Shown here: positions 15,022 to 49,515 of the stretch, piece after piece
Layout of the letters: the number at the start of each line of letters is the position of its first letter
Numbering within the stretch: the stretch's first letter is position 1
NCBI RefSeq assembly: GCF_014205335.1
Contig: NZ_JACHNH010000001.1
Coordinates: forward strand, 7,496,501 to 7,560,500
Length of the DNA stretch: 64,000 nucleotides
Origin: Amorphoplanes digitatis
Lineage (GTDB): Bacteria; Actinomycetota; Actinomycetes; Mycobacteriales; Micromonosporaceae
Direction of reading: 5' to 3'
Position numbers and translations under genes: made by a program
Notes under the pieces: model-generated
Told to the model about the DNA's origin: nothing
What the model saw: the letters and a program-made list of their open reading frames with translations, nothing else
Database searches by the model: none

Positions 15022-15261
15022 TCGCGCCTCCTGATCCGCCAGCGCTGGAAGTCTATGTGTCTCTCGCCCGAAGCCAAGGCGTACCAACAGTCGGACAGCA
15101 CCCGCGAGCCAAGCCGATCGGGCGGTACGCCCGCCGTCCGGATGAGGCCGAGCGGCCGCCATAACTCGTATCTTCGGTGGACAGGACCCCTCGCTTTCGG
15201 GGTGCGGAACGACGCGGCGGACGCTTGTCGCGCGGCCCACTCCCATAGAGGGTCTTACGCC

Positions 15262-16125
15262 ATGTACGAAATCCAGCTCTTCGGTCGACTCGAGGTCCGC
15301 ACACGCGGCGTGCGCCTGACGGGTCAGGACTTCGGCGGCGAAAAGCCCCGGCAGATTCTGGCACTGCTCGCGCTCCGTGGCGAGACGAACGGCGCGGAGT
15401 TGGCGGAACTGCTCTGGTCCGGACGCCCACCGGCCGGCCACCGGACCACGGTGGAGGGTTATGTGTCCCTTTTGCGGCATCGTCTCGACCCGGCGGGCGA
15501 CTCCCGTGACTCCGCGATCACCAGCCGCGACGGCGGCTACGCCCTCGTCGACGAGCGGGTGCGGGTGGACGTGGCCCGCTTCGACGAGCTGGTCGCGGCG
15601 GCCTCGGGCCGTACGGCGGGGCGCGCGCTGCGGCCGCTGACCGCCGCCGCCCACCTGGCCGGGCGGCCGCTGCTGGAGGACGTCGAGCACCCGGAGTGGG
15701 CGGCCGAGGCCCGCGAGCGCTACCGGACCCGCCTGGTGACGACGCTGCTCGACGCGGGCGGGCTCGCGCTGGCGGCCGGGGAGCCGAGCACGGCGCTGGA
15801 GCTGGCGGGCCGCGCGGTGGACATCGACCCGGTCGCGGAGCGCGGTTGGGCGATCACGATGGCGGCGCACCGCTCGCTCGGCGACCGGGTGGCGGCGCTG
15901 CGGGCATACGACCTCTGCCGCCGGCGGCTCGCCGAGGACCTGGGCGTCGAGCCGTCCGCGGAGACCCGCGCTCTGTTCCTGGAGCTGCTGCGGTACGACG
16001 GCTCGGACCCCGCAGTGGACGGCGCGGTCGCGGCGATCCTGGCGGCGGCCGGCGAGGCACACCGGCCCGGCACGGTGGCGGACCTGCTGCGCCGGGCCGC
16101 GGAGCTGGCCGCCCGGCCGCAGTGA
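15262..16125 (+). CDS. SARP-type regulator (winged helix plus BTAD)
   Basis: A 287-residue transcription regulator. The N-terminal OmpR-like winged helix starts MYEIQLFGRLEVRTRGVRL with PRQILALLAL, and a bacterial transcriptional activation domain lies at about 105-260 (VDVARFDELVAAA; LAEDLGVEPSAETRALF). Family members activate secondary metabolism or developmental genes. No biosynthetic cluster is adjacent, so the target is unknown. The 240-base gap to the divergent LuxR regulator presumably holds both promoters. Confidence 0.85.
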   Translation: MYEIQLFGRLEVRTRGVRLTGQDFGGEKPRQILALLALRGETNGAELAELLWSGRPPAGHRTTVEGYVSLLRHRLDPAGDSRDSAITSRDGGYALVDERVRVDVARFDELVAAASGRTAGRALRPLTAAAHLAGRPLLEDVEHPEWAAEARERYRTRLVTTLLDAGGLALAAGEPSTALELAGRAVDIDPVAERGWAITMAAHRSLGDRVAALRAYDLCRRRLAEDLGVEPSAETRALFLELLRYDGSDPAVDGAVAAILAAAGEAHRPGTVADLLRRAAELAARPQ

Positions 16126-38870: not shown

Positions 38871-40637
38871 TCAGCGCGCGGCGCCCGCGCGGGACGAGAT
38901 CGCCTCGAGGAAGATCTCACCGATCTTCGCCGGGTCCTGCGCGATGAAGACGCCGCCCGAGCTCGTGGCCTTGGTGATGACCTCGAGCTCGTTGCGGTCG
39001 ACACCGGGTCCGATGCCGATGATGACCATGCGCACCGGGCGCTTCGGGTCCGCGAGCTTCTTCAGCTCGTTGACCAGGGTCTTCTGGTTGATGCCGTCCT
39101 TGTTCTCGTTCTGCCCGTCGGTGAAGAGCAGCACCGAGTTGACCCGGCCGGCCTGCCAGGTGTCCTGCACGTTCTTGTACGCGGCCAGCGCGGTGTCGTA
39201 GAGACCCGTGCCGCCGTTCGGCTTCGGCCTGATCTTCTCGATCGACTCCTGGATCTCGGCCCGCTTCGACGTGAGCGGGCTGATCGGCACGATCTGCTTC
39301 CAGGGCTGCTTGCCGACCATCTCGGTCGAGAAGAGCCAGACGCCGACCGCCCACTTGTCGTCGAAGAGCGCGAGGCCCTGCGACGCCGCTGCGCGGGTCA
39401 CCGTTGCGCGGTCCACGTTGCGGGCCGTCGGCACCTTGTCGAGCATCGAGCCCGACACGTCGAAGACGGCGAGCGCGCGGCCCGGCAGGGTGATGGCGGC
39501 CCAGCTGCCCAGCACCTGGTTGATCGAGCCGGCGTCGAGGCCCGCCGCGGCGGTGCCCTCGGTGCCGGTCGCGGGTGCCTCGGCGGGCGGGCTGGCCTGC
39601 GGCGCACCGACCGGGCCGGAGAAGCCGGCGCCGACCGTGCCGTCGGGGGCACGCAGGCCGACCGAGGCGAGCTGGTCCTTGAAGCTGGGCTGCTGGAGCG
39701 CCTCGCGCAGCCCGGTGGCGGCCGCGGACCTGGTCAGGTCGACCTCGGGCATGACCGCGAACGGGTAGTCCAGCGACGGGGTCTGGTCGAGGTAGAGCGC
39801 GGCGAGCTTCACCTGCGGACGCTCGGCGTTGTACGCGATCACGTCCTCCTCGGACAGCGGCGCGGCACTCACGGCGCTGGCGAGGTCGGCCGCGTCGAGC
39901 GACCGCGGGAACTTCTGCATGAGGTCGTCGCGCAGCGAGGAGCTGCCCGCCGCCAGGGCGCGCAGCGCACCCACCTGTGTCGCCTTCGCCTCTGGGCCGG
40001 CGCCGGCGGCGCCGCCCAGCGCGAGCAGACCGGCGAGGCCGGCCGAGTCGCGGGTCGGATCGACGATGCCGGTCCGCAGCGAGTTGCCGGTCGTCATCTG
40101 CTGGAGAAGGTCTTTCCAGGTCAGCTTCTTGTCGGGCCAGCCGACCTGCTGCGCGATGGGCTCGGGCATGGCGACCACGACGGGGCTCTTCGCGATCGAC
40201 TTACCGTCGGTCGGCACGAAGCCGGACGCCTCCGACCGCAGACGCAGCAGCCAGGTCGACGAGTCCGCGATCCACACGTCCGGCAGGACGGCGGACTTGC
40301 CGCCGGAGCCGATGCCGGTGAGGGAGACGCCGTGCTTGGCCGCCACGGTCGAGGCCGTGGTAGCGGGGTTGACGCCGGACACGCTCACGGCGACACAGGT
40401 TCCGTTGACGTTGGCACCGCCGGCTGTCCACTGCTGGGCAGCTTGTTCCACGGCGGGAGCGATCTCGGTGGCGGCTGCGACGGTCAGCTTGATCTGACCT
40501 GTGCACCCGGCATCGGCGAGACTCTGATAGCCGAGCCAGGAACCGGCGAGGACGACCACGATCGCCATCGCAGATGCGACGACGCCGGCTCCCCTGAGAC
40601 TGAAGTTTCTGCGATGGCGGCCTGACACGCGCTCCAT
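38871..40637 (-). CDS. Membrane-anchored substrate-binding/VWA-domain fusion
   Basis: A 588-residue protein. An N-terminal signal anchor (about 15-37) is followed by a periplasmic binding-protein-like domain (about 48-335; DVWIADSSTWLLRL, SAGLAGLLALGG). A Pro/Ala/Gly linker then leads to a C-terminal von Willebrand A domain (385-580) with intact MIDAS D393-S395-S397 (FDVSGSML) and FTDGQNENKDG. The VWA part should bind a metal-dependent partner outside the cell. ATG 40637 is preferred because GGAG is suitably spaced; ATG 40646 abuts it. Ligand and partner are unknown. Confidence 0.82.
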   Translation of the reverse strand: MERVSGRHRRNFSLRGAGVVASAMAIVVVLAGSWLGYQSLADAGCTGQIKLTVAAATEIAPAVEQAAQQWTAGGANVNGTCVAVSVSGVNPATTASTVAAKHGVSLTGIGSGGKSAVLPDVWIADSSTWLLRLRSEASGFVPTDGKSIAKSPVVVAMPEPIAQQVGWPDKKLTWKDLLQQMTTGNSLRTGIVDPTRDSAGLAGLLALGGAAGAGPEAKATQVGALRALAAGSSSLRDDLMQKFPRSLDAADLASAVSAAPLSEEDVIAYNAERPQVKLAALYLDQTPSLDYPFAVMPEVDLTRSAAATGLREALQQPSFKDQLASVGLRAPDGTVGAGFSGPVGAPQASPPAEAPATGTEGTAAAGLDAGSINQVLGSWAAITLPGRALAVFDVSGSMLDKVPTARNVDRATVTRAAASQGLALFDDKWAVGVWLFSTEMVGKQPWKQIVPISPLTSKRAEIQESIEKIRPKPNGGTGLYDTALAAYKNVQDTWQAGRVNSVLLFTDGQNENKDGINQKTLVNELKKLADPKRPVRMVIIGIGPGVDRNELEVITKATSSGGVFIAQDPAKIGEIFLEAISSRAGAAR

Positions 40638-40814
40638 ACTGCGCATCTCCGGACCTGAATGCCATATACGTTCGGACGAAACTTACTCGGATTGGAAATT
40701 CCAGTTACCTAATTCACTTTGTGTAGCGAAGCACATCCAGGCAGTGTGCGGATCTTGGCGGGTTATGCCGGATTTAACCCTTAACGCCCCCAAGGCGCCC
40801 CCGTCCGCTATCGG
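40638..40814 (-). promoter_or_regulatory. AT-richer upstream region with TGGAA-A-TTCCA palindrome
   Basis: This 177-base gap before the VWA gene is noticeably AT-richer than its surroundings. It contains a perfect short palindrome at 40693-40703, and it presumably carries the VWA promoter. Confidence 0.35.
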
Positions 40815-41873
40815 TCATCCAATGACCTGGATACCGCTCCAGCGCAACAGGCACGTCGGACTGCCTTCGCCCACCGGCTCGCCCTGCGACTGCGGAATAC
40901 CGGTGTCCGGGTCGATGCGGAAGATCGTGACGTTGTGTGAGCGCTCGTTCGCTACATAGAGATGGTCGCCGAGCAGAGCGATGTGCCGAGGCCAGACACC
41001 GCCGACGGCCACCTCGGCGACCAGCGTGCCGCCGCCGGGCTCCCACGAGAAGACCGAGACGGTGTCCGGGCCGCGGTTGGCCACGTAGACGAAGCGCCCG
41101 TCGCGACCGGCGGTCAGCTCCGACGGGTAGTTCGGCTTCCCGGCGCTCGTCGTCGCGCCGCCGGCCTGCAGCAGGCCGCCGTCGGCCGGGTCCGGGCGGT
41201 ACCAGGTCAGCTCGCCGGCCAGCTCGCCGACCAGCAGCAGCGCGCCGTCGGCGGAGTGCAGCAGGTGGCGCGGGCCGGTGCCGGGCGTCGCGACGACGGC
41301 CGGGCCGGCCAGGACCAGCCGGCCGGAGATCGGGTCGAGGCGGGCACGCCACACCCGGTCCGAGCCGAGGTCGGAGATGAGCACGTCCGGGCCGTTCGGA
41401 TCCGGCGCGACCATGTGCGGGTGCGGGCCCTCCTGGCGGTCCGCGACCGGGCCCCGGCCCTCCAGGTGGAGCAGGTCGCAGTGCTCACCCGGTACGCCGT
41501 CGGCGTCGAGCGGGAACACGGCGACGCTGCCGCCGGCGTAGTTGGTCACCAGCAGGTGCCGGGCGTCGGAGGCGACGGCGAGGTGGCACGGCGCCGCGCC
41601 GCCGGTGGACCGCACCGCAAGCGGGGTCAGGGAGGCCTCCGGTCCGACCGCGAACGCGCTCACCCGGCCGGCGGCCAGCTCGTTGGCCGCGTACAGCACC
41701 GGCAGGCGCGGGTGCTGGGCCAGAAAGGACGGCGAGGGTGTGCGGGCGACTACACCCAGCCGGGTCAGGTCGCCGGTGGCCGGATCGCGGCGCAGCAGCG
41801 CGATGCCCTCGCCCTCGCCACCGGTCTCGCCCGTGTAGCAGCCGACGAAGACGTACTCATCATTCGCGCCCAT
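40815..41873 (-). CDS. Seven-bladed propeller lactonase family protein
   Basis: A 352-residue protein of the lactonase (YbhE/muconate-cycloisomerase-like propeller) family. YVFVGCYTGE, HPRLPVLYAANEL, PHPHMVAPDPNG, GPRHLLHSADG and RFVYVANRGPDTVSVF mark successive blades. The family includes 6-phosphogluconolactonase of the E. coli Pgl type, but most members have unknown substrates. No signal peptide is seen. ATG 41873 is chosen over an upstream TTG. Confidence 0.82.
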   Translation of the reverse strand: MGANDEYVFVGCYTGETGGEGEGIALLRRDPATGDLTRLGVVARTPSPSFLAQHPRLPVLYAANELAAGRVSAFAVGPEASLTPLAVRSTGGAAPCHLAVASDARHLLVTNYAGGSVAVFPLDADGVPGEHCDLLHLEGRGPVADRQEGPHPHMVAPDPNGPDVLISDLGSDRVWRARLDPISGRLVLAGPAVVATPGTGPRHLLHSADGALLLVGELAGELTWYRPDPADGGLLQAGGATTSAGKPNYPSELTAGRDGRFVYVANRGPDTVSVFSWEPGGGTLVAEVAVGGVWPRHIALLGDHLYVANERSHNVTIFRIDPDTGIPQSQGEPVGEGSPTCLLRWSGIQVIG

Positions 41874-41952
41874 GCCCCGATCCAATCACGCGGAAGCGAC
41901 GGCCGCGCGGACCCCCGTCCGACCCGCGCGACCGCCGCCCGCCTTGAGGTGC

Positions 41953-42759
41953 TCACTCGTTCAGCAGCTCGTAAGCGGCCTCCGTCGCCTTCTGCTGCTG
42001 GTCGGCCGCGGGTACCGCCGGCGCCGGCGCCTTGCCGAAGTCGCTGTAGGTCACCTCGTACCTGGAGGCCTTGAACTTCCCGGCCGCCGGGATCTTCACG
42101 ACCGCGGAGGTCAGCCGGCCCTGGCCGTCGACGGTCGCCTCGAACGGCACCGCCCTGGCCCGCGCGCCGAGCGCCGCGAGCCGGTCCGGCTCGACGATCT
42201 CGAGATCGCCCTGCCGGGTGAGGTCGGTGGTGCCGGCGAACTCCCCCGCACCGGTCTGCCGGACCTCGACGATCGCCCGGAGCACCGCGCCGGCCTCGCC
42301 CGGGTCCGTCTCGCCGGCGTAGCCGAGCGGGATGTCGTCCTTGTTCTTGATCTTCGCCGGGTCGATCAGCATCCACTTCTTCGGCAGCTTCGGAAGCCCG
42401 AGGCCCTCGGCGTCGGTGAACTTCATCCTGATCCAGGTCTGCTCCTCGACGACCAGGAAGTCGGAGTGCAGCGTGAAGCCGAACTCCGGCTCCCGGTAGC
42501 GCAGGTCGATCCGGTAGCTGTGCCGGTCACCGTCGAAGGCGCCGGACGCCGACATCCCGCCGTCCTTGGCGGTGAAGCGGAAGCTGCCGCTGCTCACGTC
42601 CGGCAGCGACTTGAGCAGCGTCTCCCGTGGTCCGAGCGGCGCCGGCGAGCCGGACGCGGCCGGGCCCGGTGCGGCATCGGCGAGGCAGCCGCCGGTGGCG
42701 ACGGCGCACGCCACGACAAGGGCGGCGAAGGCGGCCGGCCGAACTTTGCGAACATTCAT
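41953..42759 (-). CDS. Lipoprotein of unknown function
   Basis: A 268-residue exported lipoprotein with lipobox ATGGC near residue 25. The mature domain (RETLLKSLPDVSSGSFRFTA, TWIRMKF, ATVDGQGRLTSAVVKIP) resembles LppX/LprG/DUF-type actinobacterial lipid-carrier-like lipoproteins. The resemblance is by pattern only. It lies upstream of the lactonase in the same direction with an 80-base gap. Confidence 0.65.
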   Translation of the reverse strand: MNVRKVRPAAFAALVVACAVATGGCLADAAPGPAASGSPAPLGPRETLLKSLPDVSSGSFRFTAKDGGMSASGAFDGDRHSYRIDLRYREPEFGFTLHSDFLVVEEQTWIRMKFTDAEGLGLPKLPKKWMLIDPAKIKNKDDIPLGYAGETDPGEAGAVLRAIVEVRQTGAGEFAGTTDLTRQGDLEIVEPDRLAALGARARAVPFEATVDGQGRLTSAVVKIPAAGKFKASRYEVTYSDFGKAPAPAVPAADQQQKATEAAYELLNE

Positions 42760-42923
42760 CGACTCATCGCTTTCTCAGCGCGGCGGCCGGGTTTTCCGGT
42801 CCGCCTGTCGGGTTGACGCATTGAAGCCTCGGAGACAGTGCTGCCATCGCTCTGCGGCTATGCTGCTGCCGGCTGCCGTTCCGCTGCCGTTTCACATACG
42901 TGCTGCTCAAGGGGGTTGGCGCC

Positions 42924-44630
42924 GTGACAGACGCGCCCGCGAGCCTCGCGCTGAGGTTCGAGATCCTCGGCGAAGTCCGGGCACTGCGCGGCGATGAACG
43001 GCTGGATCTCGGCCCGGCCAAGCAGCGCGCGGTGCTCGCGGTCCTGCTGCTGGACGCGGGCCGGCCGGTGCCGACCCACCAGATCGTCGACGCGGTGTGG
43101 GGCGACGGGCCGCCGGAGAACGGCGCCAACGTCGTGCAGAAGTACGTGGCCGGGCTGCGCCGGGTGCTGGAGCCCGACCGCTCGCCGCGTACACCGGGCG
43201 AGCTGATCGCGCTGACCGACGGCGGCTACGTCCTGCGAACCGACCCCGGCACGCTGGACGCCGAGCGGTTCCAGTCCGGCCTCGCCCGGGCCTCCGCGCA
43301 GCGCCGGGCCGGGCAGCTCGCCGAGGCGGCCGAGACCCTGCGCGAGGCGGTGGCCCTCTGGCAGGGCGAGGCGCTCGCCGGGCTACCGGGGCCGGTCTTC
43401 GAGGCCGCCCGCAACCGGCTCACCGACGCCCGCGCCACCGCCTGGGAGAAGTGGGCGGACATCGAGCTGGCCCGGGGCAACCACACCGGGCTCATGCCGG
43501 ACCTGGTCCGGCTGGTCGAGCAGTTCCCGCTGCGCGAGGGGCTGCGGGCCCAGCTGATGATCGCCCTGCACCAGGGCGGACGGCAGGCCGAGGCGCTTGC
43601 GGTGTTCCGCGACGCCCGCGCGTACTTCCTCGACGAGTTCGGCGTGGAGCCGGGCGAGCGGATGCAGGAGACGCACCGCCGCATCCTGCGCGGCGAGCCC
43701 TTCTACTCCGAGCCCGTCGACCCGTGGGCCGCGAGCGACGACATCCCGGCGCCCCGTGGTCCGGTCGGCGTCACCCCGCCCGCCGCGCCGATCGCCTCCG
43801 GCTCGCTCGCCGTGCCGCCGTCGGCCTACGTCCAGCAGTACGTCCCGCCGGACCCCACCGAGATCGTGCCGGCACCCGCGTCGCCGGTCCACCCGCCGCT
43901 GTCGCCGTGGGGTGTCGGCGCCCCACCCCCGCCGCCGGCGTACGCGGTGCCGCGCCGGCGGTTCCCGGTCGGCGAGGTGATCTTCGCGGCGCTGACCCCG
44001 CTCGTCGTGTGCTCGTTCGGCAGCTGGATCTACTTCGTGTACGCGGGCGCACGGCGCCGGGACCGGCGCCAGTATCTGGTCGCGGCCGGCTACGCCGCGC
44101 TGTTCGTCGTCGCGTTCGTCGTCTTCGCCGCGATCGACCCGACGTCGGTCGAGAGCGTCGAGCTGAGCAACGCGGAGACGATCGGCTTCCTGATGCTCCT
44201 GGGCCTCCCCGTCGCCGCGTCCGTGCACGGCGCGGTCCTCGCCTCGCACCCCGGCGACACCCCGAAGACCCGGAACCTGCGGGAGCAGGCACGCCGGTTC
44301 GCGCTCTTCGACCCGGCCCGCGCCCGCCAGCTGGGCATCGGCCGGCCGGACCTGCTGCGCGCCTTCGACGACGGCGGACTCGTCGACCTCAACCACGTGC
44401 CGGGGCACGAGCTGGCCCGGCTGCCCGAGCTGAGCTCGGAGCAGGCACACCGGATCGTGATGGACCGCCTCAACCGCGGGCCGTACCACCGGCCCGATGA
44501 GCTGATCGCGCGCGGAGTCTTGCCCGCGCGGACGGTCGCCCGGCTCGCCGGCCGGCTGATCTGCCTGCCGCCGACCCCGCTGGACACCCCGTCGGGCTGG
44601 CACTCACCGCACTCGACGCCACACGGCTGA
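42924..44630 (+). CDS. Membrane-bound SARP/BTAD regulator fused to a helix-hairpin-helix module
   Basis: A 568-residue fusion. The OmpR-like winged helix (about 12-107; PAKQRAVLAVLLL, VQKYVAGLRRVLEPD) and BTAD (about 114-256; LDEFGVEPGERMQETHRRIL) make a complete SARP. A Pro-rich linker (265-345), three transmembrane helices (349-374, 384-404, 418-441) and a ComEA-like helix-hairpin-helix region (about 486-549; DLNHVPGHELARLPELSSEQ) follow. The last two parts resemble a separate actinobacterial membrane-HhH family. The DNA-binding head would face the cytoplasm while tied to the membrane. GTG 42924 follows AAGGGGG; GTG 42900 is an alternative. Confidence 0.8.
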   Translation: MTDAPASLALRFEILGEVRALRGDERLDLGPAKQRAVLAVLLLDAGRPVPTHQIVDAVWGDGPPENGANVVQKYVAGLRRVLEPDRSPRTPGELIALTDGGYVLRTDPGTLDAERFQSGLARASAQRRAGQLAEAAETLREAVALWQGEALAGLPGPVFEAARNRLTDARATAWEKWADIELARGNHTGLMPDLVRLVEQFPLREGLRAQLMIALHQGGRQAEALAVFRDARAYFLDEFGVEPGERMQETHRRILRGEPFYSEPVDPWAASDDIPAPRGPVGVTPPAAPIASGSLAVPPSAYVQQYVPPDPTEIVPAPASPVHPPLSPWGVGAPPPPPAYAVPRRRFPVGEVIFAALTPLVVCSFGSWIYFVYAGARRRDRRQYLVAAGYAALFVVAFVVFAAIDPTSVESVELSNAETIGFLMLLGLPVAASVHGAVLASHPGDTPKTRNLREQARRFALFDPARARQLGIGRPDLLRAFDDGGLVDLNHVPGHELARLPELSSEQAHRIVMDRLNRGPYHRPDELIARGVLPARTVARLAGRLICLPPTPLDTPSGWHSPHSTPHG

Positions 44631-44662: not shown

Positions 44663-45262
44663 CTAGCGGGAGCCTGCGGCCAGCAGCTGCCGGCGGGCGA
44701 CGTACTCGACCAGCTCGATCAGGACGTTGCGGGCGGCCAGCGGCTGGCGCGCGTCGAACTCCACCACCGGAACGTCGGGGTCGAGGTCGAGCGCCCGGCC
44801 GACCGCCTCGGCGCCGAACCGGCGGTCCGAGTCGAAGCAGTTCACGGCGACCACGAACGGCGTGCCGCGCTGCTCGAAGTAGTCGATCGACGGGAAGCAG
44901 TCCGCCAGGCGACGGGTGTCGGCGAGCACGACGGCGCCCAGCGCGCCCTGCGACAGCTCGTCCCAGAGGAACCAGAACCGGTCCTGCCCGGGCGTGCCGA
45001 AGAGGTAGAGCTGCAAGTCCTCGGTGATCGTGATGCGACCGAAGTCCATCGTCACCGTGGTCGTGCGCTTACCCTCCACGCCGGAGGTGTCGTCGGCGCC
45101 CTCGACGCCGGTCAGCACCTCCTCGGTCTGCAACGGCCGGATCTCGCTGACCGAGCCGACCATCGTGGTCTTGCCCGCACCGAACCCGCCGGCGATGAGG
45201 ATCTTGAGCGCGACCGGGATGCGAGAGCGCGTGCCGTCTCGGTCAGAGCGCACGGAGTCCAT
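44663..45262 (-). CDS. cvnD: Conservon GTP-binding protein CvnD
   Basis: A 199-residue small GTPase of the conservon/MglA-like type. P-loop GGFGAGKTT, switch II GTPGQDRFWF and VVAVNCFDSDRR (NCxD in place of NKxD) are visible. It overlaps cvnC by 20 bases. In Streptomyces, conservon products form membrane-associated signalling complexes resembling eukaryotic G-protein systems. Confidence 0.9.
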   Translation of the reverse strand: MDSVRSDRDGTRSRIPVALKILIAGGFGAGKTTMVGSVSEIRPLQTEEVLTGVEGADDTSGVEGKRTTTVTMDFGRITITEDLQLYLFGTPGQDRFWFLWDELSQGALGAVVLADTRRLADCFPSIDYFEQRGTPFVVAVNCFDSDRRFGAEAVGRALDLDPDVPVVEFDARQPLAARNVLIELVEYVARRQLLAAGSR

Positions 45263-45629
45263 TGACAACCGCCTTGAGTACGTCGACGTCGTGCGGCTGA
45301 CAGGCCGCAGGGGGCTCGTAGAGCGAAATGAGTCCCGCTGAGCGTAGATCACCCAGCAAAACCCGGACGACTCCGAGGGAGAGGTCCAGTTTGGAGGCTA
45401 GTTCGACAATCGGCGTCGGCTCACACGCCGCGCCGACGATCGCATGATGCTCCGGTTGTAAAGAAGGCGACGGTGCCGCCTGGCTCATCGTCGCCACCAC
45501 GAAGGCGACGAGGTCGAATTCACCGCCGGACGGTGCGACGCGGCCCTGCGTCATCGCGTACGGCCGGACCACCGGACCCGCGTCGTGGTCCAGCCAGTCG
45601 TGCGGCGCACGCAATGGGTCACCGCGCAT
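45243..45629 (-). CDS. cvnC: Conservon DUF742 protein CvnC
   Basis: A 128-residue DUF742 protein (VVRPYAMTQGRVAP; LDLSLGVVRVLLGDLRSAGLISLYEPP). A winged-helix-like core is suggested. It overlaps cvnB by 11 bases and cvnD by 20 bases. Confidence 0.9.
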   Translation of the reverse strand: MRGDPLRAPHDWLDHDAGPVVRPYAMTQGRVAPSGGEFDLVAFVVATMSQAAPSPSLQPEHHAIVGAACEPTPIVELASKLDLSLGVVRVLLGDLRSAGLISLYEPPAACQPHDVDVLKAVVNGLRAL

Positions 45630-46038
45630 GGGACCCGTTGGGCCGCTCGGGTGCGTCCATCGTCTGGCCCACCCGGACCACGAGCATGGCCATCTCGTAC
45701 GCGATCAGGCCCAGGTCCGCGTCGCTGGTGGCCACCACCGCGAGGCATGCGCCCAGCCCGGCCGCCGTGACCAGGAGGAACGCGTCCTCCATCTCGACAA
45801 CGGTCTGGCGCACCGGGCCGGCCCGGAAGTGCCGGCTCGCCCCCTTGGCCAGGCTCTGGAAGCCGGCGGCCATCGCGGAGAGATGCTCGGCGTCCTCCCT
45901 GCTCAGAGCGGCGGATGCGCCCATCATGAGCCCGTCCGCCGACAGCACCACCGCCTGCTGCACCGACGGCACCCGCTCGACGAGGTCGTCGAGGAGCCAG
46001 GTGAGGTTGGCGCTCTGGTGGTTCGTCGTGTGTGCCAC
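45619..46038 (-). CDS. cvnB: Conservon roadblock/LC7 protein CvnB
   Basis: A 139-residue roadblock/LC7-domain protein (LTWLLDDLVERVPSVQQAVVLSADG in two halves around residues 12-36; AGLGACLAVVATSDADLG). Such proteins act as GTPase-regulating partners, here of CvnD. The GTG start overlaps the cvnA stop by one base. Confidence 0.9.
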   Translation of the reverse strand: MAHTTNHQSANLTWLLDDLVERVPSVQQAVVLSADGLMMGASAALSREDAEHLSAMAAGFQSLAKGASRHFRAGPVRQTVVEMEDAFLLVTAAGLGACLAVVATSDADLGLIAYEMAMLVVRVGQTMDAPERPNGSHAR

Positions 46039-49000
46039 TATGCGTCCTTCTCCGGCCGGTTCTCGTGGTTCTCGTGGTTCTCTTCGGGCGCGCTGTCATC
46101 ACCTGCGGGAATCCCGGCCACCACCGGGCTCTGCACCGCCGGGAACGTGACGGTAGCCGCCTCCGACAACGCCCGCGCCCCCAGCGTCCCCTCTTTGTCA
46201 GTGACTGATGTCTCGTCGGTTTTCTCCGGGCTCTTCCCGGTGCTCAGGGCGGCCGCCGCGAGACGGCCCTCGGAGGTGCCGCGCTGTAGCGCGCTCATCA
46301 GGTTGCGGACCTGCTCCGGTGAGCGGGAGGTGCCGGCGGTGACGCGCTCGGCGACCGGACCGCGCAGCTGCGGCGCGAGGCTGGCCTGCCGCACCCGCCG
46401 GGGCAGCAGCTCCTCGTCGGCCTCCTCCAGCGACTCGCCGGACACCGGCGGCAACTGGCCGGGCACCGGCGGCGACTCGCCGGGCACCCGCGGCGCGAGA
46501 TCCGCCTCGGGCACGAACGGGTCGGAGCCGAGCAGGTCGGGCTCGTTGCCCGGCAGGGCGGGATCCGCCGCGGGAGCGATCGGGTCGGGCTCGGCGCGCG
46601 GGGCGGGGATGCGGGGCTTGAGCGGCGCCGGTGCGGGGCCTGACAGGGCCGTCGGACCGTCGCCGTGCCGCAGCGGGGTGCCGCCGGCCAGCCCGTTGCC
46701 GCCCGCCAGCCCGTTGCCGCCCGCCAGCCCGTTGCCGCCCGCCAGCCCGTTGCCGCCCGCCAGCCCGTTGCCGCCCGCCAGCCCGTTGCCGGCCGACGGG
46801 AGCTCCATCGGGGTCAGCCCGGCGGGCGAGGTCAGGTTCGGCGGAAGCAGGGCCGGCGGCGCCGAGGGCCCGCCCTTGGCGGGGCGCGGCCGGGTGCGGC
46901 GGCGCTGCACCAGGCCGTCCTCGGTGAGCCCCTCGACCACCGCGCTGGGGCTCGGCCCGCTCGGCTCGGCCGGCGGCCCCAGGTCGATGGCCGTGTCGGC
47001 CAGGTCCGGGCCGGCCGTGGCGGTTCCGTTGATCGTCACCGGGCGGCCGGCCACCGAGATGGAACGCAGCTCCTCGGTGCCCTGCCACTGCAACTCCGCG
47101 AGCGAGGGGCGGGACGGATCCTCGGTGCCCGTGCCGACCAGCGGGCGGTCCCACGACCTGTCGGCGGGCGACGGCCCGAGGGGCAGCGCGTTGCGGCCCG
47201 GCCCGGGCGTGACGAGATCGCCCGGCACCAGCACCACCGCGGTCACGCCGCCGTAGCCGCTCGTGCGCAGTGACACCCGGATGCCGTGCCGGTTGGCCAG
47301 CTGGGCGACCACGAAGAGGCCGAGCCGGGCGCTGTCCGCCGGGTCAAAGTCGGGCGGCTCGAGCAGCTTGCGGTTGGCCTCGGCGAGCGCCTCGGGCGAC
47401 ATGCCCAGGCCGCGGTCCTCGATCTCCAGCGCGTAGCCGTTCGGCAGGACCTGGCCCACGACCTGGACCCGGGTCCGCGGCGGGGAGAACGAGGCCGCGT
47501 TCTCCAGCAGCTCGGCGACCAGGTGGATGACGTCGCCGACGGCCCGGCCGAGCACCGCGGCGGCCTCGATCGAGACGATGTCGACCCGCTTGTAGTCCTC
47601 GACCTCGCTGATCGCGCCGCGGACGACGTCGATCACCGGCACCGGGTTGCGCCAGCCGCGACCGGGCGCGGCGCCGGCCAGGATCACCAGGTCCTCGGCG
47701 TGGCGGCGCATCCGGGTGGCGAGGTGGTCGACGCGGTAGAGGTCCTCGAGCTCGTCGGGCTCGGTCTCGCGCCGCTCCATGCGGTCGAGCAGCGCGAGCT
47801 GGCGGTGCAGCAGGGTCTGGCTGCGCCGGGCGATGTTGAGGAAGACCTCGTTGATACCGCGCCGGACGTTGGCCTCCTCGACCGCCGACTGCACGGCCGT
47901 GCGCTGCACCTCGTTGAACGCGCGGCCGAGCTCGCCGATCTCGTCGCGGCCGTACTCCATGGGCGGGGTCTCGACCTCGACGTCGACCGCCTCGCCGCGC
48001 TGCAGTCGCCGGACGACCGACGGCAGCCGCTCGGTGGCCATCTCCAGCGCCTCGCCGCGCAGCCGGGTCAGGCGCCCGACCATCGAGCGGCCGACGCGCA
48101 GCGACACCACGACCGAGACGACGACCGCGATCAGGCCGAGCAGGCCGGCCAGCCCGAGCCGGATGAGCACCTTGGTGGCGACCGGTATGGCCTCCTGCGC
48201 GAGCGAGTCCGCGGCGTTGATCTCGAACGCGCGCACCTGCTGCACGGAGGTGTCGAAGGCCGGCTGCCACGACGCGTCCGTCACGGGCGCCGTGAGGCCG
48301 GGGCGGCTGTCACTGACCAGAATGTCCTGCAGCTCGCGGAGCCGGTTGAACGAGGCGCCGTTGCTGAGCCGCCGGTACGCCGCGCGGTCACGGTCGGGCA
48401 GGTCGAGGACGCCCTGCGAGAGCAGGAAGCGCGAGGTGGCGATCGACTGCAACAGCTCGGTGCGGCCGGCCGGGCTGAGCTTGCCGGCCGCGTGCGCGCC
48501 CGCGACCAGCGAGTCCGTGCGGTTGAGGTGCTCGCGGCCGCGGCCGATCATGGTGAGGCCGCGGATCTGGCGGTCGATGCGTTCGTCGTTGAACGTGGCG
48601 AGCGCCGCGTACATCTGGAACGTGCCGTCGACCATGCCGTTGTAGAGGTTGTGCGCGCCGATCGGGTCGACCTCGCGGCGGTCGATGTGCAGGCGGTTGG
48701 CGGCCAGCCCGTCGAGGTCGGAGAAGACCTGCTGGATCCGGGCCTCGAGCGTGTCGGTCGCGGCGCCCCGGGCATCGTCGCTGGCCGCGGTGCGCCGGAA
48801 GTCGGTGGCGGCCCGGTCGGTGGCGGCGCGCTGCGCGATGAGCGCCGCGGAGCTGCTCTTCTCGTCGGAGAGGAACTCCACGGAGAGCCTGCGCTCGCGC
48901 TGAAGCTCGCCCGTCAGCACCTCGCCGGGGGTGCCAACGGTGTCCAGCAGGGTCTGTGCCGACATCAGGTTGAGCGCCGGGCCGACGGTCAGCGCCGTCG

Positions 49001-49088
49001 CGAAGACCCAGAGCGCGAGCAATGCCGCCAGCGGCACCGCCACCATCGCGATGATCTTCGAACGGATCGACCAGTTGCGGGTTCTCAT
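46038..49088 (-). CDS. cvnA: Conservon sensor histidine kinase-like protein CvnA
   Basis: A 1016-residue membrane protein. TM1 (about 12-35), an extracytoplasmic nitrate/nitrite-sensing (NIT) domain, TM2 (about 300-322), HAMP and a HATPase domain follow in order. N-box LLENAASFSPP, G1 EDRGLGMSPEAL and G2 LGLFVVAQLANRHG are present. As in other CvnA proteins there is no clear HisKA phosphoacceptor His. A long disordered C-terminus contains six GNGLAG units (765-800). ATG 49088 follows GGAG; an upstream start at 49136 has no support. Confidence 0.88.
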   Translation of the reverse strand: MRTRNWSIRSKIIAMVAVPLAALLALWVFATALTVGPALNLMSAQTLLDTVGTPGEVLTGELQRERRLSVEFLSDEKSSSAALIAQRAATDRAATDFRRTAASDDARGAATDTLEARIQQVFSDLDGLAANRLHIDRREVDPIGAHNLYNGMVDGTFQMYAALATFNDERIDRQIRGLTMIGRGREHLNRTDSLVAGAHAAGKLSPAGRTELLQSIATSRFLLSQGVLDLPDRDRAAYRRLSNGASFNRLRELQDILVSDSRPGLTAPVTDASWQPAFDTSVQQVRAFEINAADSLAQEAIPVATKVLIRLGLAGLLGLIAVVVSVVVSLRVGRSMVGRLTRLRGEALEMATERLPSVVRRLQRGEAVDVEVETPPMEYGRDEIGELGRAFNEVQRTAVQSAVEEANVRRGINEVFLNIARRSQTLLHRQLALLDRMERRETEPDELEDLYRVDHLATRMRRHAEDLVILAGAAPGRGWRNPVPVIDVVRGAISEVEDYKRVDIVSIEAAAVLGRAVGDVIHLVAELLENAASFSPPRTRVQVVGQVLPNGYALEIEDRGLGMSPEALAEANRKLLEPPDFDPADSARLGLFVVAQLANRHGIRVSLRTSGYGGVTAVVLVPGDLVTPGPGRNALPLGPSPADRSWDRPLVGTGTEDPSRPSLAELQWQGTEELRSISVAGRPVTINGTATAGPDLADTAIDLGPPAEPSGPSPSAVVEGLTEDGLVQRRRTRPRPAKGGPSAPPALLPPNLTSPAGLTPMELPSAGNGLAGGNGLAGGNGLAGGNGLAGGNGLAGGNGLAGGTPLRHGDGPTALSGPAPAPLKPRIPAPRAEPDPIAPAADPALPGNEPDLLGSDPFVPEADLAPRVPGESPPVPGQLPPVSGESLEEADEELLPRRVRQASLAPQLRGPVAERVTAGTSRSPEQVRNLMSALQRGTSEGRLAAAALSTGKSPEKTDETSVTDKEGTLGARALSEAATVTFPAVQSPVVAGIPAGDDSAPEENHENHENRPEKDA
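46687..46794 (-). repeat. Six tandem 18-bp repeats inside cvnA
   Basis: The unit GCCAGCCCGTTGCCGCCC occurs six times in tandem. The first five copies are identical and the sixth has one substitution. They encode a six-residue Gly-Asn-Gly-Leu-Ala-Gly repeat in the C-terminal tail. Near-identity suggests recent expansion by slippage. Confidence 0.92.
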
Positions 49089-49515
49089 CAGACTCCGCCC
49101 GAGGGGATGCAGGACCTGCGTGGCGCAGGCCGACACGGCCGTCGACGCATGTTAACGGCCGTTTTCGAGCTGAGCACGCCTTCGGCAGGATACGTAATGG
49201 ACGCGATCGGAGCTAGCTCCAGTACGTGCCATAATAAAGCGGACTGTCCTAATTGTCCTGGGGGAACGACATGCGTATCAGGTCGCTCTTTAACAAATCT
49301 CACGACAAACAACCCCGCACCGGCCCGGCCGCGCCGGGGTCGCCGGGCGATCTGTCCGCTTCCGGTCAGTCGAGGGGCGCCACCGGGTCGGCGCCGGTCC
49401 GCAACGAATCGGGTTCTCCGACCACACAGACGGAGGGTTTTCACGCCGGGCTGTCGAATCGGATTGATGACCCTGGTTGGGTGGGCATATCCAGGGGTGA
49501 AGAAGGAGGAATCCG
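49089..49515. other. Divergent region between the conservon and FVDSP genes
   Basis: A 427-base gap that must carry promoters for both directions. It contains the 12-bp perfect palindrome GGAGCTAGCTCC (49209-49220) and CATAAT (49230-49235, plus strand). The minus strand has repeated AGGACA words near 49243-49260. A frame from ATG 49270 (82 codons) has GGGGGA upstream but mixed codon usage; I treat it as unproven. Confidence 0.45.

Follow-up and report, generated by a model that had tools for sequence, protein, structure and literature searches.

The window analysed here, a stretch of 64,000 nucleotides, contains a gene for a SARP-type regulator that carries its own membrane module (Table 1). 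The reading frame is open from a GTG at 42924 to a TGA at 44628-44630, and AAGGGGG just 5' of the GTG is a plausible ribosome site. The product consists of an AfsR-like SARP head (winged helix plus BTAD), a Pro-rich linker, three hydrophobic segments, a GRPD...DGGLxDxN stretch, and a helix-hairpin-helix (HhH) domain. A lipoprotein gene is transcribed divergently across a 164-bp gap that holds an array of CTGC-type repeats, and a conservon-type gene set converges on the regulator gene from the other side.

Table 1. Features of the regulator locus (positions in the window; aa, residues of the regulator)
Feature	Position	Strand	Basis
Divergent lipoprotein gene, probable target	41953..42759	-	Synteny, lipobox Cys
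GAGGCT, possible -10 of the divergent lipoprotein gene	42825..42830	-	SAGNCT-type hexamer; promoter role inferred
Predicted SARP operator, five CTGC-type repeats at 42841, 42852, 42863, 42873, 42884	42841..42889	.	Conservation, repeat positions
TATGCT, likely -10 of the regulator gene, inside the array	42859..42864	+	TATGCTG in 31/31; promoter role inferred
SARP-TM-HhH regulator CDS, 568 aa	42924..44630	+	Open frame, Pfam, one-frame orthologues
OmpR-type winged-helix DNA-binding domain, aa 10-105, recognition helix NVVQKYVAGLRR	42951..43238	+	Pfam Trans_reg_C, AfsR match, contact residues
BTAD activation domain, aa 111-255	43254..43688	+	Pfam, fold match to AfsR and EmbR
Pro-rich low-confidence linker, aa 266-345	43719..43958	+	pLDDT, identity
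Hydrophobic segment 1, aa 352-375, re-entrant or membrane-spanning	43977..44048	+	Hydropathy
Hydrophobic segment 2, aa 385-404, predicted membrane helix (model helix 381-402)	44076..44135	+	Hydropathy, flanking charges
Hydrophobic segment 3, aa 421-440, predicted membrane helix (model helix 416-441)	44184..44243	+	Hydropathy, flanking charges
Amphipathic helix (predicted cytosolic) and GIGRPDLxRxFDDGGL segment, aa 443-486, TM-HhH family signature	44250..44381	+	Invariant residues
Helix-hairpin-helix domain, aa 487-549, degenerate hairpins	44382..44570	+	Pfam HHH_3, fold matches
Convergent conservon-type GTPase	44663-45352	-	Pfam
Convergent conservon-type DUF742-like	45243-45629	-	Sequence reading and gene order
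Convergent conservon-type roadblock-like	45619-46038	-	Sequence reading and gene order
Convergent conservon-type NIT/HATPase sensor	46038-49136	-	Pfam

The head has the domain order that defines a SARP, a winged helix followed by a BTAD, with Pfam matches to Trans_reg_C at aa 32-104 (E 1.9e-9) and to BTAD at aa 111-255 (E 6.6e-37). Its best solved relatives by sequence are AfsR (E 3.7e-48) and EmbR, and a fold search with the head finds the same two proteins, AfsR with E 5e-19 and a TM score of 0.92 over the target. The AfsR-DNA structure shows backbone contacts by Q48, W74, P79, R94, and K95 and base contacts by T88 and R92 (PMC10936776). In a pairwise sequence alignment, the backbone-contacting residues correspond to Q34, P64, R79, and R80, which are present in 35 of 35 fused proteins, and to W59, which is present in all 34 that have a residue there; R80 in place of AfsR K95 is a conservative swap. 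T88 and R92 are replaced by K73 and G77, both also invariant in the 35 fused proteins. Since the backbone contacts are kept and the base contacts are changed, the head should bind DNA but with a different sequence preference than AfsR.

The sequence-only reading had described a complete SARP head and a membrane part in one protein, and the Pfam matches, hydropathy, and one-frame orthologues bear this out. A search of 61 genomes yields full-length orthologues in one frame down to 54% identity. Of the 68 genomes of the genus, 41 carry the one-frame fusion. It also occurs in about ten further genera of the same family, in one more family of the order and, outside the order, in Actinoallomurus. 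A scan with an alignment of the tail, using one genome per species, detects 80 loci, 30 fused to a SARP head and 50 stand-alone. Most of the fused loci (25 of 30) come from Actinoplanes, Amorphoplanes, Paractinoplanes, Winogradskya, Pseudosporangium, and Nucisporomicrobium, and the other five from Catellatospora (n=3), Micromonospora (n=1), and Actinoallomurus (n=1). Across the family, the tail module occurs in 158 of 301 genomes, and 11 of 19 further loci fetched from it carry the SARP fusion. All fused proteins form one group in a tree of SARP heads; the membrane-only proteins L215, L216, L217, and L219 fall inside this group and L032 adjoins it. The fused frame is a genuine, conserved gene, and the fusion recurs far beyond chance.

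A frameshift or misassembly that joins two neighbouring genes would be the trivial explanation, and split orthologues were what the sequence-only reading had named as its mark. Stand-alone TM-HhH genes do occur elsewhere, and one Micromonospora locus (L196:5989-7781, minus strand) carries both parts in different frames. However, the frames of L196 overlap inside the Pro-rich linker, which resembles what a single frame change would give, and L196 is the only genome seen split; the stand-alone tails have no SARP gene within 4 kb at any of the 50 loci. The artefact is refuted because independent assemblies share the fusion: the junction is identical across 41 genomes of the genus and recurs in assemblies from many other genera. 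It can be set aside with near certainty.

The linker that follows the head has pLDDT values below 50 over most of aa 272-343, and leads into the three hydrophobic segments. Mean net charge is +2.9 in loop 1, -4.1 in loop 2, and +3.2 after segment 3, and these signs hold in 35 of 35 fused proteins. By the positive-inside rule, the loop charges predict that loop 1 and the C-terminus, and with it the tail, are cytosolic. For the SARP head to be cytosolic as well, the same pattern calls for a re-entrant or interfacial segment 1. The full-length AlphaFold model gives segment 1 as helix-break-helix, whereas a tail-only model gives one continuous helix, and the segment may enter the membrane as a re-entrant hairpin instead of crossing it. 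The sole part predicted to lie outside is the short acidic loop at aa 405-420, and no extracytoplasmic sensor domain is seen. Judged by Pfam and hydropathy, a single protein joins a domain for DNA binding to one or more predicted membrane segments, as in transmembrane regulators. Segment 1 and the basic loop suggested a CD225/IFITM-like membrane module; no Pfam match to such a family was obtained, and this candidate was rejected.

The most conserved part of the tail is the GRPD...GGLxDxN block, which is also found in stand-alone relatives. R453, P464, G473, R474, P475, D476, G484, G485, and L486 are invariant in 35 fused proteins. The HhH domain that follows is matched by Pfam HHH_3 at aa 486-545 (E 3.4e-6), with 27.5 bits barely above the curated cut-off of 27.0. 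It has the HhH fold but is only ComEA-like in its hairpins: the fold search ranks the photosystem subunit PsbU first, ComEA and Tex are matched as well, and there is a match to a KIF22 domain. The external location of ComEA after a single membrane helix is not reproduced, as the tail follows three hydrophobic segments and the charges place it inside in 35 of 35 proteins. L215, L216, L217, and L219, which form one clade with full support, have cleanly lost the HhH and kept the head, membrane part, array, and synteny.

The 50 stand-alone Pro-rich/membrane/HhH loci (among L064-L118) belong to Streptosporangiales and Glycomyces. Their products share the hydrophobic segments, the GRPD...GGLxDxN block, and the HhH with the regulator but have no SARP head. 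At 37 of these loci, all in Streptosporangiales, at least three nuo (complex I) genes lie alongside, with a Pfam check of L083. In that example, the stand-alone gene (L083:3749-4618, plus strand) sits between nuoI-like and nuoH-like genes, on the opposite strand, inside a complex I cluster. A respiratory or membrane-energy signal for the regulator is possible and offers a lead.

The array upstream of the regulator gene, which the sequence-only reading did not mention, belongs to an element of about 50 bp with CTGCSG repeats around an invariant TATGCTG, found in 31 of 31 fused loci. In the window (42841-42889) the pattern is CTGCCG-5-CTGCSG-N-TATGCTGCTGCCGGCTGCCGTTCCGCTGCCG, and the repeat pitch is 11, 11, 10, and 11 bp. 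TATGCTG is present in all 31 upstream regions and CTGC words occur at -18, -7, +4, +14, and +25 in most of them, with information content dropping to background on both flanks. Among the further fused loci from the family, the core lies within 400 bp upstream in all except L178 and L181. In other families of the order, L030 has a shorter form of the element and L031 has four repeats about 11 bp apart. A SARP site consists of direct repeats spaced by 11 or 22 bp, and 8 bp separate its 3' repeat from the -10 (PMC10936776); direct repeats at a pitch of about 11 bp are found upstream of the gene in orthologues. By this layout, the array is probably a SARP operator, a predicted site shared with the divergent lipoprotein gene. 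In most orthologues, though not in every lineage, a minus-strand hexamer of the SAGNCT type follows the last repeat at a distance of 10 bp; if it serves as the minus-strand -10, its spacing from the array is 10 bp and not the exact 8 bp of SARP sites. The hexamer is comparable to the weak -10 of the AfsR target afsS, CACTGT (PMC10936776).

The regulator's own genome has one exact core only, and a search there for a wider regulon, allowing one mismatch in the core or using a three-repeat pattern, gives extra sites only at control level. Within the genus, the exact core is found in 45 of 45 genomes with the SARP-TM gene (41 fused and 4 membrane-only) and in 1 of 23 genomes without it (G035), where it is not beside a SARP gene. 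This co-occurrence is partly expected because the array and the gene share one locus; it shows one conserved site per genome, not independent co-evolution. Extra exact cores in G026, G518, and G030 are at control level and have no full array. In G026 and G518, a second exact core, CTGCCGTTATGCTGC, lies near genes that look signal-peptidase-like by sequence reading (L220 at ~3461 and L221 at ~3432, both minus strand). As these copies in two related genomes occur at control frequency, they are possibly due to chance.

The lipoprotein gene is the divergent neighbour in 25 of 25 Actinoplanes-group loci. A divergent lipoprotein is also present in Micromonospora and several other genera, and sequence reading finds a similar one at L031, in another family. 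The lipobox Cys25 is invariant. Searches for the identity of the lipoprotein gave no Pfam or PDB match and a weak, sub-threshold match to the SCO4651 lipoprotein family. The Catellatospora locus L066 showed no divergent lipoprotein, and the divergent gene of the Actinoallomurus locus L110 seems to encode a membrane protein of another kind. Downstream of the lipoprotein gene, the window has genes for a solute-binding/VWA protein and a 7-bladed lactonase (38871-40646 and 40815-41885, minus strand); among Actinoplanes-group loci, the lactonase occurs in most and the VWA gene in many.

SARPs are classic switches of antibiotic production. The neighbourhood of this regulator gene consists of the lipoprotein gene and the conservon, with no evident biosynthetic cluster. 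The conservon set (44663..49136, minus strand) lies beside the regulator gene in 24 of 25 Actinoplanes-group loci and in one other genus (L181). It was not seen around the remaining fused genes, and it is therefore unlikely to be a general partner of the regulator. The C-terminal part of its sensor contains tandem GNGLAG-type repeats (window ~46665-46850).

We consider it fairly probable that the regulator is a membrane-anchored one-component SARP that controls its own divergent promoter. The cytosolic SARP head would bind the single CTGCSG array, with its 10-11 bp pitch, in the 164-bp gap and, by analogy with AfsR, would recruit RNA polymerase at the lipoprotein promoter. The same array covers the likely -10 (TATGCT) of the regulator gene, and its occupation would limit the regulator's own synthesis. 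Activation of the lipoprotein gene would thus be coupled to autorepression. The membrane module, made up of segment 1, two membrane helices, and the short acidic outside loop, would keep the protein at the envelope and would probably serve to sense the state of the envelope or membrane. The cytosolic HhH would serve as an accessory interaction or positioning domain and not as a DNA binder on the outside.

Other roles for the tail can be weighed against this model. If the HhH were a second cytosolic DNA-binding domain, the head would grip the operator and the HhH neighbouring DNA, pinning the locus to the membrane. The confirmed fold with its ComEA and KIF22 matches is consistent with such a role, as are the predicted cytosolic location of the tail and a mildly basic net charge of +1.55 in 11 fused proteins (A3) versus a mean of -5.7 in stand-alone relatives. 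However, over 35 fused proteins the mean is only +0.7, with 14 negative, and the GhG signature of DNA-binding hairpins is degenerate: hairpin 2 has it in 0 of 35 and hairpin 1 keeps its second glycine in only a few. Moreover, the top fold match is the photosystem subunit, and the clade that lost the HhH retains the operator and synteny. A second DNA-binding domain is therefore unlikely. Because of the GhG loss, the acidic stand-alone relatives, and the clade without the HhH, this domain is rated accessory and is probably not a DNA binder. The sequence-only reading had proposed three helices and a ComEA-like HhH tail that may contact DNA, in a one-protein membrane-to-DNA regulator or DNA tether. 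The three hydrophobic segments, the HhH fold, and, by virtue of the intact fusion, the candidate regulator remain from this proposal; the first segment may not cross the membrane, the hairpins depart from GhG, and both HhH-DNA contact and tethering through the HhH are disfavoured.

A tail on the opposite, outer face had been entertained as well. Placed there, it could bind external DNA in the manner of a ComEA-like receptor and pass a signal to the SARP head, an arrangement compatible with the ComEA-family match and with a naive count of three hydrophobic segments, which puts the C-terminus outside. This arrangement would invert the positive-inside pattern seen in 35 of 35 proteins, and the degenerate hairpin signature also argues against it, making an external receptor very unlikely. 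At the other extreme, the membrane and HhH part might be a passive anchor without regulatory effect, leaving the head as an ordinary constitutive small SARP. The linker, the least conserved part of the protein at 39% identity among close orthologues, and the fast-diverging membrane part, at 25% identity outside the group, would suit an anchor, as would an HhH that is dispensable in one clade. Such freedom to diverge does not extend to the GRPD...GGLxDxN block, invariant in 35 fused proteins and present in stand-alone relatives, and the membrane part is retained in every examined relative with the operator, including L030. A purely passive role is accordingly judged quite unlikely.

Several known systems can be compared with the regulator. 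AfsR of Streptomyces coelicolor, a large SARP (PDB 8hvr, 8jke, 8k60), has an N-terminal SARP head of the same fold, with phosphate-contacting residues that are kept or conservatively replaced in the regulator, and the same 11-bp direct-repeat operator logic. It differs in its base-contacting residues and repeat sequence and in having NOD and TPR parts where the regulator has a membrane module and HhH, and no description of AfsR as a membrane protein is known. EmbR of Mycobacterium tuberculosis (PDB 2fez, 2ff4) likewise joins a SARP head to one extra C-terminal domain, but this is a soluble FHA domain, and there is no membrane part. The HhH fold is shared with ComEA and other HHH_3 proteins (PDB 8dss; PsbU, 4yuu), although the regulator lacks the GhG signature and its domain is predicted to be cytosolic rather than external. 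CadC and ToxR are single-pass proteins with a periplasmic sensor domain. The regulator instead combines a BTAD with two or three hydrophobic segments, and is predicted to expose only a short loop outside and to have its tail in the cytosol. What it shares with ToxR/CadC-type regulators, as presented in a transmembrane-regulator survey (PMC10269533), is a one-component design of a cytosolic OmpR-type winged helix with membrane helices.

The SARP types recognised in a 2024 review are small, medium, large, and LAL, and membranes are not mentioned there (PMC10972967). SARP, BTAD, and actinobacteria are not named in the main text of the transmembrane-regulator survey (PMC10269533). No described membrane-bound SARP was found in the literature searched, in agreement with the sequence-only reading, which knew of no characterised example. 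Judged by sequence, the regulator would fit both the transmembrane one-component definition, as given in that survey (PMC10269533), and the sequence definition of a SARP, a combination not found described in the literature searched. With its operator and target predicted, a conserved clade of SARPs anchored in the membrane would provide a simple system for asking how a membrane-fixed factor finds and activates one promoter. It also gives a testable function to an unannotated membrane-HhH family otherwise found among complex I genes. A broader view is that these proteins form a new class of polytopic SARPs in the membrane, in which the TM-HhH part, with its stand-alone relatives encoded in complex I gene clusters, would sense envelope or respiratory state. 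Each would act on one genomic operator, and this locus would stay at the membrane for as long as the regulator is bound; we regard this as a speculative extension that is possible but doubtful.

BTAD genes in other families of the order (L030, L032) encode SARP heads followed by two hydrophobic modules, with no HhH, an architecture that suggests a wider set of membrane SARPs. The window itself holds a second, small SARP-like gene at ~15257-16125 (plus strand), with a BTAD match at 15565-15990.
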